DNA of 64,000 nt from a virus: IMG/VR virus record IMGVR_UViG_3300022926_000006, positions 1-64,000 of that record; one strand, written 5' to 3'. Positions 1,177 through 1,248 of the stretch are shown piece by piece. The notes beneath the pieces are model-generated. The model saw only the letters and a program-made list of their open reading frames with translations, was not told where the DNA came from and did no database searches. The first letter of the stretch is position 1; the number at the start of each line of letters is the position of its first letter. The position numbers and the translations under genes are program-made.

Positions 1177-1248
1177 TTACTTGTTCATTATGTACATTGT
1201 TACTTCAAATCCAAATCTCATTTCTGTATATGTTGGTTTAGTCCACAT
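1177..1248 (-). CDS. pqqA-like: PqqA-like peptide precursor
   Basis: A 23-codon ORF coding for [10 protein letters not shown] then RFGFEVTMY then IMNK. From memory of the Klebsiella pneumoniae PqqA peptide (also 23 residues), about 12 of 23 positions are identical, including Trp2, Lys4, Pro5, Arg11, Gly13 and the EVTxY core with Glu15 and Tyr19. Those two residues are the ones cross-linked by the radical-SAM enzyme PqqE to start pyrroloquinoline quinone synthesis. A GGAGA ribosome binding site sits 6 nt before the ATG. The gene has its own downstream terminator and is separated from gene 23 by that gene's terminator. No pqqB, C, D or E is visible here, so processing would need host enzymes. 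The match is clear; function in the phage is inference. Confidence 0.82.
   Translation of the reverse strand: [23 protein letters not shown]

Follow-up and report, generated by a model that had tools for sequence, protein, structure and literature searches.

The short open reading frame (ORF) at positions 1,177 to 1,248 (minus strand) of the window, a stretch of 64,000 nucleotides from a viral record of 82,083 bases, is a true PqqA as judged by its profile matches. We consider it likely that this is a functional phage pqqA, an auxiliary metabolic gene that would supply a consumed precursor to the PqqD and PqqE enzymes of the host late in infection. PqqE together with PqqD joins a glutamate and a tyrosine of PqqA, and each molecule of PQQ uses up one peptide. 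An earlier reading made from the sequence alone had proposed that the phage feeds host PQQ synthesis or that the peptide is a decoy or the seed of another modified peptide. The first proposal was best supported because Glu15 and Tyr19 are retained, the peptide is nearly identical to host PqqA and hosts have multiple copies of pqqA with a single pqqE, and also because the cultured carriers are exclusively phages of Methylophilales and the gene sits next to the capsid gene behind a late-promoter-like motif. The other two proposals were disfavored.

The ORF has 23 codons and a stop codon. Its peptide scored 43.2 bits against the Pfam profile PF08042 (cut-off 21.1, E 3.6e-11) and 46 bits against the NCBIfam equivalog profile TIGR02107 (cut-off 20, E 3.1e-12). 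The comparison with PqqA families suggested by the sequence-only reading thus bore out its description of a PqqA-like, 23-residue ORF, with both scores far over the curated cut-offs. In 100 shuffled versions of the window (dinucleotide shuffling), the PqqA pattern had 0 matches. Glu15 and Tyr19 have the ExxxY spacing (three residues between) that gives the PQQ backbone, and the length falls within the range of PqqA precursors (∼20 to 29 residues). The typical but optional location beside pqqBCDE was not seen, and a sequence search of the PDB with the 23-mer gave no match. A second in-frame ATG, upstream at 1,260, overlaps the GGAGA ribosome-binding site (1,254 to 1,258, minus strand), and relatives have a Shine-Dalgarno site a few bases 5' of ATGTGG; hence, the start that gives 23 residues is correct. 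An AAGGAGA-like site is kept in the phage copies.

The gene lies between a T4-type major capsid gene (gp23; 1,392 to 2,669; phrog_138, 1.6e-154) and a downstream tail-tube-like gene (521 to 1,105; phrog_45, 3.2e-34), all on the minus strand and in the arrangement first read from the sequence. The accompanying GGAGA site and the two terminators, one before and one after pqqA, were also recovered. The intrinsic terminator 3' of the capsid gene (1,341 to 1,370, minus strand) folds with -18.4 kcal/mol (z -4.0) and that 3' of pqqA (1,149 to 1,171, minus strand) with -15.0 kcal/mol (z -4.3), each followed by a T run. A late-promoter-like TATAAGTAATA (1,284 to 1,294, minus strand), a variant of the TATAAATA motif with one mismatch to the usual form, precedes pqqA. 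A motif scan and an alignment of the window with its relatives L307, L246 and L247 placed a second late-promoter-like element, GATAAATAGTA (1,130 to 1,140, minus strand), before the tail-tube gene. The scanned late motif occurred 18 times on the pqqA strand of the 64 kb, with ∼0.04 occurrences expected in the 143-base gap. Motifs of the TATAAATA type are found 5' of many structural genes of the window phage (for example at 2,720, 3,961, 5,008, 9,049 and 16,259), and a comparable motif precedes structural genes in T4 late transcription, which makes it reasonable to infer late expression of pqqA from a promoter recognized by its motif.

The record belongs to a T4-type phage, with genes for gp23, tail tube, UvsY, prohead protease, gp32, gp59 and gp5. 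In L307, the capsid of which is 88% identical to that of the window, PqqA is found in the corresponding slot, again with the promoter-like motif (TATAAGTA is kept) and a counterpart of the terminator. In L246 and L247 (capsid 89% identical), gp23 is followed by one terminator and then the tail-tube promoter, without pqqA; GATAAATAGTA is common to the filled and the empty slots. PqqA was found nowhere in the 74-kb record of L247, and with the slot empty in L246 and L247 this means that pqqA is dispensable in some background. The sequence-only reading had asked if the spot after gene 23 is kept, and the answer is divided: L307 has pqqA there, L246 and L247 do not. The capsid tree nests L246 and L247 with L307 (support 100/99), which requires a gain and a loss, or else two gains, around these three. 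Among the T4-type capsids sampled, supported branches forced at least four gains or losses of pqqA; the pqqA-free sequences in this set are mostly fragments, and absence beyond the slot is therefore uncertain for them. With its own terminator (which folds), its own promoter (seen as a motif) and a junction that is empty in close relatives, the window pqqA has the form of a moron-like cassette set between gp23 and the tail-tube gene. It resembles the morons of lambdoid phages in being an extra gene with its own promoter and terminator between conserved genes and absent in close relatives, but it differs from them in its T4-type phage, late-type promoter and metabolic-substrate cargo.

We scanned IMG/VR twice, requiring Glu15 and Tyr19 in the first scan and leaving both codons free in the second; the counts of viral carriers from both scans are lower bounds. 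The 161 phage copies considered here are the listed pattern matches of the second scan, which forms the unbiased part of the test of Glu15 and Tyr19 because some loci entered through the first. Both residues were invariant in 161/161 listed copies, with variable third bases in both codons, and the length was 23 residues in 160 of them. Over the 13 codons not fixed by the pattern dN/dS was ∼0.14, with synonymous sites near saturation; positions 6 and 7 were far more variable than the others. Loss of Glu15 and Tyr19 in related phages and lack of coding constraint had been named in advance as observations that would speak against a PqqA; the listed copies all keep the two residues and are under purifying selection.

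A tblastn search against 50,697 phage records gave 12 matches. Nine of these are isolate records from Methylophilales hosts (Venkman, MEP301, MEP401, MEP402, P19250A and four Melnitz), and the remaining three are the uncultured podovirus ctXG6705 and two contigs labelled as Acinetobacter phage. We inspected one of the latter two, L008 (CAKLQF020000010.1), named Acinetobacter phage MD-2021a; it is locally a bacterial contig with pqqABCDE, ppk and fur, and we set it aside as a carrier with its match inside the bacterial pqqABCDE operon. The SAR11 relatives HTVC008M and Mosig had no pqqA match, and further Methylophilales isolates in the taxonomy (MEP431-434 and more) lie outside the collection matches. 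The annotations of Venkman, MEP301, MEP401/402 and P19250A lack the pqqA ORF, and opposite-strand hypothetical ORFs cover it in Melnitz and ctXG6705; the Melnitz gene (L003:5961-6066) is overlain by MelnitzEXVC044M_152. Venkman and ctXG6705 are related (∼20 shared proteins), and the other pairs of carriers share 0 to 7 proteins, except for the window and Melnitz, of which only a part was compared. As the carriers share few genes, they represent at least five lineages. In the phages checked we found no pqqE (the 82-kb window record included) and no PQQ alcohol dehydrogenase/methanol dehydrogenase. When the first 25 kb of Venkman was compared with ctXG6705 by megablast, pqqA was the sole match (L385:9974-10058; 90.6% over 84 bases), which reflects either unusual DNA conservation or recent exchange between phages with ∼20 proteins in common. 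Some phage PqqA sequences are not of the Methylophilaceae type, with endings such as ...IATK among the examples (L117:12321-12393, L100, L011, L025 and L086), and their sequences suggest phages of other PQQ-making hosts.

A major capsid gene lies directly upstream of pqqA on the same strand in 27 of the 152 listed loci that have an upstream neighbor, the window included. If the slot were chosen at random among the ∼60 genes of a genome, two or three of 152 would be expected. Fifteen of the 27 capsids are of the phrog_371 type, seven of the T4 gp23 type and five of the phrog_267/MEP301 type, assigned by profile matches for ten representatives and by BLAST clustering for the others; because the lineages are not independent, the weight lies on the convergence of three capsid families. 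Among these 27 listed loci, a terminator separates the capsid gene from pqqA in 25 and follows pqqA in 14. Other positions also occur: pqqA lies just beyond gp23 and facing it in L075, just upstream of gp5 in Melnitz, L093 and L097 (in Melnitz it precedes tRNA-Leu and the gp5 hub gene), and beside recombination genes in Venkman and MEP301.

On the host side, a scan of bacterial genomes for WxKP...RFGFEVTMY found at least 116 stretches, chiefly in Methylophilaceae, Methylophaga and methanotrophs. Among the stretches listed, the consensus C-terminus of Methylophilaceae PqqA is [MC]N[KR]. The commonest phage peptide (30 loci among the matches listed) is identical to a Methylophilaceae PqqA, and VMNK, the commonest phage ending, is also present in 28 host copies among those listed. 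The window peptide has three substitutions (A6T, A7Y and V20I) relative to the closest of the sampled host peptides and shares the common MNK end. On this basis we assign it to a Methylophilaceae host, and the phage probably infects methanol-eating bacteria. Its capsid resembles those of Melnitz (68% identical; OM43 methylotroph host) and HTVC008M (67%; SAR11 host) to about the same degree, which counts against a firm host call. We detected pqqA in 149 of 150 Methylophilaceae genomes, with a median of 4 and a maximum of 12 copies, most of them dispersed and away from pqqBCDE. This agrees with the 3 to 12 pqqA copies and single pqqBCDE described for the family (PMC4109929). The sequence-only reading had advised looking for pqqB-E in the putative host; for pqqE, each of the four Methylophilaceae hosts tested had one copy over the cut-off. 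All four also had PQQ alcohol dehydrogenase matches, three of them over the cut-off. Thus, the consumed peptide is the only component whose gene is multiplied in the host, and of this pathway the phages checked carry that gene alone. In the genome of strain LSUCC0135 (G001, the genome of L200), twelve pqqA copies with equal profile scores are scattered over 2.1 Mb. The medium used to culture Methylophilales strain H5P1 includes 1 nM PQQ (PMC9004378).

If the gene functions as we propose, pqqA would be transcribed late and translated from its GGAGA site, adding PqqA peptide to the infected methylotroph. Host PqqD and PqqE would join Glu15 to Tyr19 of the phage peptide, and host PqqB, PqqC and a protease would complete PQQ. 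The periplasmic methanol dehydrogenases (XoxF/Mxa) could then stay supplied during the shutdown of host transcription. A consumed part that is made late would suit a phage that draws its energy from methanol oxidation and switches off transcription in the host, and PQQ raised or maintained in this way may benefit the phage. In line with the usual definition of an auxiliary metabolic gene, pqqA is a host-derived metabolic gene that is unneeded for virion assembly, the slot being empty in L246/L247, and its pathway is present in the presumed Methylophilaceae host. Raising pqqA alone was reported to raise PQQ in Gluconobacter, according to a citation in PMC7936290. A broader proposal, to which we give even weight for and against, is that pqqA is a general gene of methylotroph phages, repeatedly acquired and placed behind unrelated capsid genes for late expression, with PqqA limiting PQQ and methanol-driven energy. 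If true, phage metabolic genes would include a class that provides a substrate to be consumed rather than an enzyme, and the pqqA sequence would serve as a host label.

A peptide that binds PqqD/PqqE could also act as a decoy, occupying the host enzymes and slowing PQQ synthesis and methanol oxidation, and small phage proteins can inhibit host enzymes. We find such a role improbable, as a decoy does not need both reacting residues and yet Glu15 and Tyr19 were never lost in the 161 listed copies; moreover, many of the phage peptides are the same as the productive substrate of the host or nearly so. Variants with Thr4 were considered as a phage-only mark of a decoy and rejected, with Thr4/Ser4 copies present in 80 of 150 Methylophilaceae genomes. 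Slightly less credible is that host PqqE-like enzymes turn the peptide into a signalling peptide or another kind of modified peptide. There are many kinds of radical-SAM peptide system and a family call is no proof of the end product, but residues 11 to 19 (RFGFEVTMY) match host PqqA, the TIGR02107 equivalog score exceeds twice its cut-off, and the phage record yielded no PqqE-like enzyme.

The empty slot in relatives, the many host copies and the sole megablast match between Venkman and ctXG6705 would be expected if pqqA were passenger DNA, a functionless host fragment retained fortuitously or as a target for recombination. The low dN/dS, the constant length of 23 codons, the ribosome-binding sites and the repeated acquisition in unrelated lineages argue against this, and we rate it between the previous two explanations. 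We give the least credence to selection for a short regulatory RNA or a transcription spacer between two terminators. The terminators flanking many capsid-linked copies are compatible with such an element, but selection acts on the amino acids with synonymous sites near saturation, and the flanks of the window and L307 diverge while the peptide is kept.

One viral PqqA was reported from Lake Baikal in 2020, and the multiplicity of host pqqA was also known before. The viral population VP_266, a presumed methylotroph phage, carries PqqA with a proposed aid to methanol oxidation (PMC7678222). That proposal is similar to ours, but VP_266 also carries a methanol dehydrogenase and is a single case in the text, whereas the window phage is T4-type, has no dehydrogenase that we could find and uses the gp23 slot, and the present analysis also covers selection and the occurrence of the gene in unrelated lineages. 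In addition, a study of reservoir sediments lists pqqA, pqqD and pqqE among viral genes (PMC13188868). The pqqA ORFs of Melnitz, Venkman, MEP301, MEP401/402 and P19250A belong to the same family, and these phages were all isolated on Methylophilales; in Melnitz, Venkman and MEP301 the gene differs from that of the window in lying at positions other than the gp23 slot. The searchable literature on the cultured carriers does not mention phage pqqA; subscription papers, such as the description of P19250A, were outside the search and may hold a prior mention. The breadth of phage pqqA and its capsid-linked placement were not found in the papers searched. The window peptide shares with bacterial PqqA of the Methylophilaceae type its length, Trp2, Pro5, the RFGFEVTMY core with Glu15/Tyr19 and the C-terminal MNK, and its gene differs in lying on a phage in which no other pqq genes were found and in having a late-type promoter and its own terminator. 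Cyanophage psbA likewise keeps a fast-consumed energy component of the host supplied as host expression falls, but psbA encodes a protein subunit of a working complex, and the PqqA peptide is a building block that is itself consumed.

Methylotrophs that use methanol, such as OM43 and Methylopumilus, are abundant in both marine and lake waters. Should their phages supply PqqA, methanol oxidation would continue during infection and the supply of PQQ precursor would be a control point. At its length pqqA falls below what usual annotation picks up, and none of the cultured carriers inspected had it labelled; the influence of viruses on one-carbon metabolism is therefore probably undercounted. The PqqA sequence also helps to assign hosts to uncultured phages. 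The window further encodes a two-piece (permuted) tmRNA of the alphaproteobacterial type (58,590 to 59,031, minus strand; tag ANDNIAYEDIRLAA). Melnitz also has a two-piece tmRNA, which its authors regarded as a sign of a host shift from SAR11.
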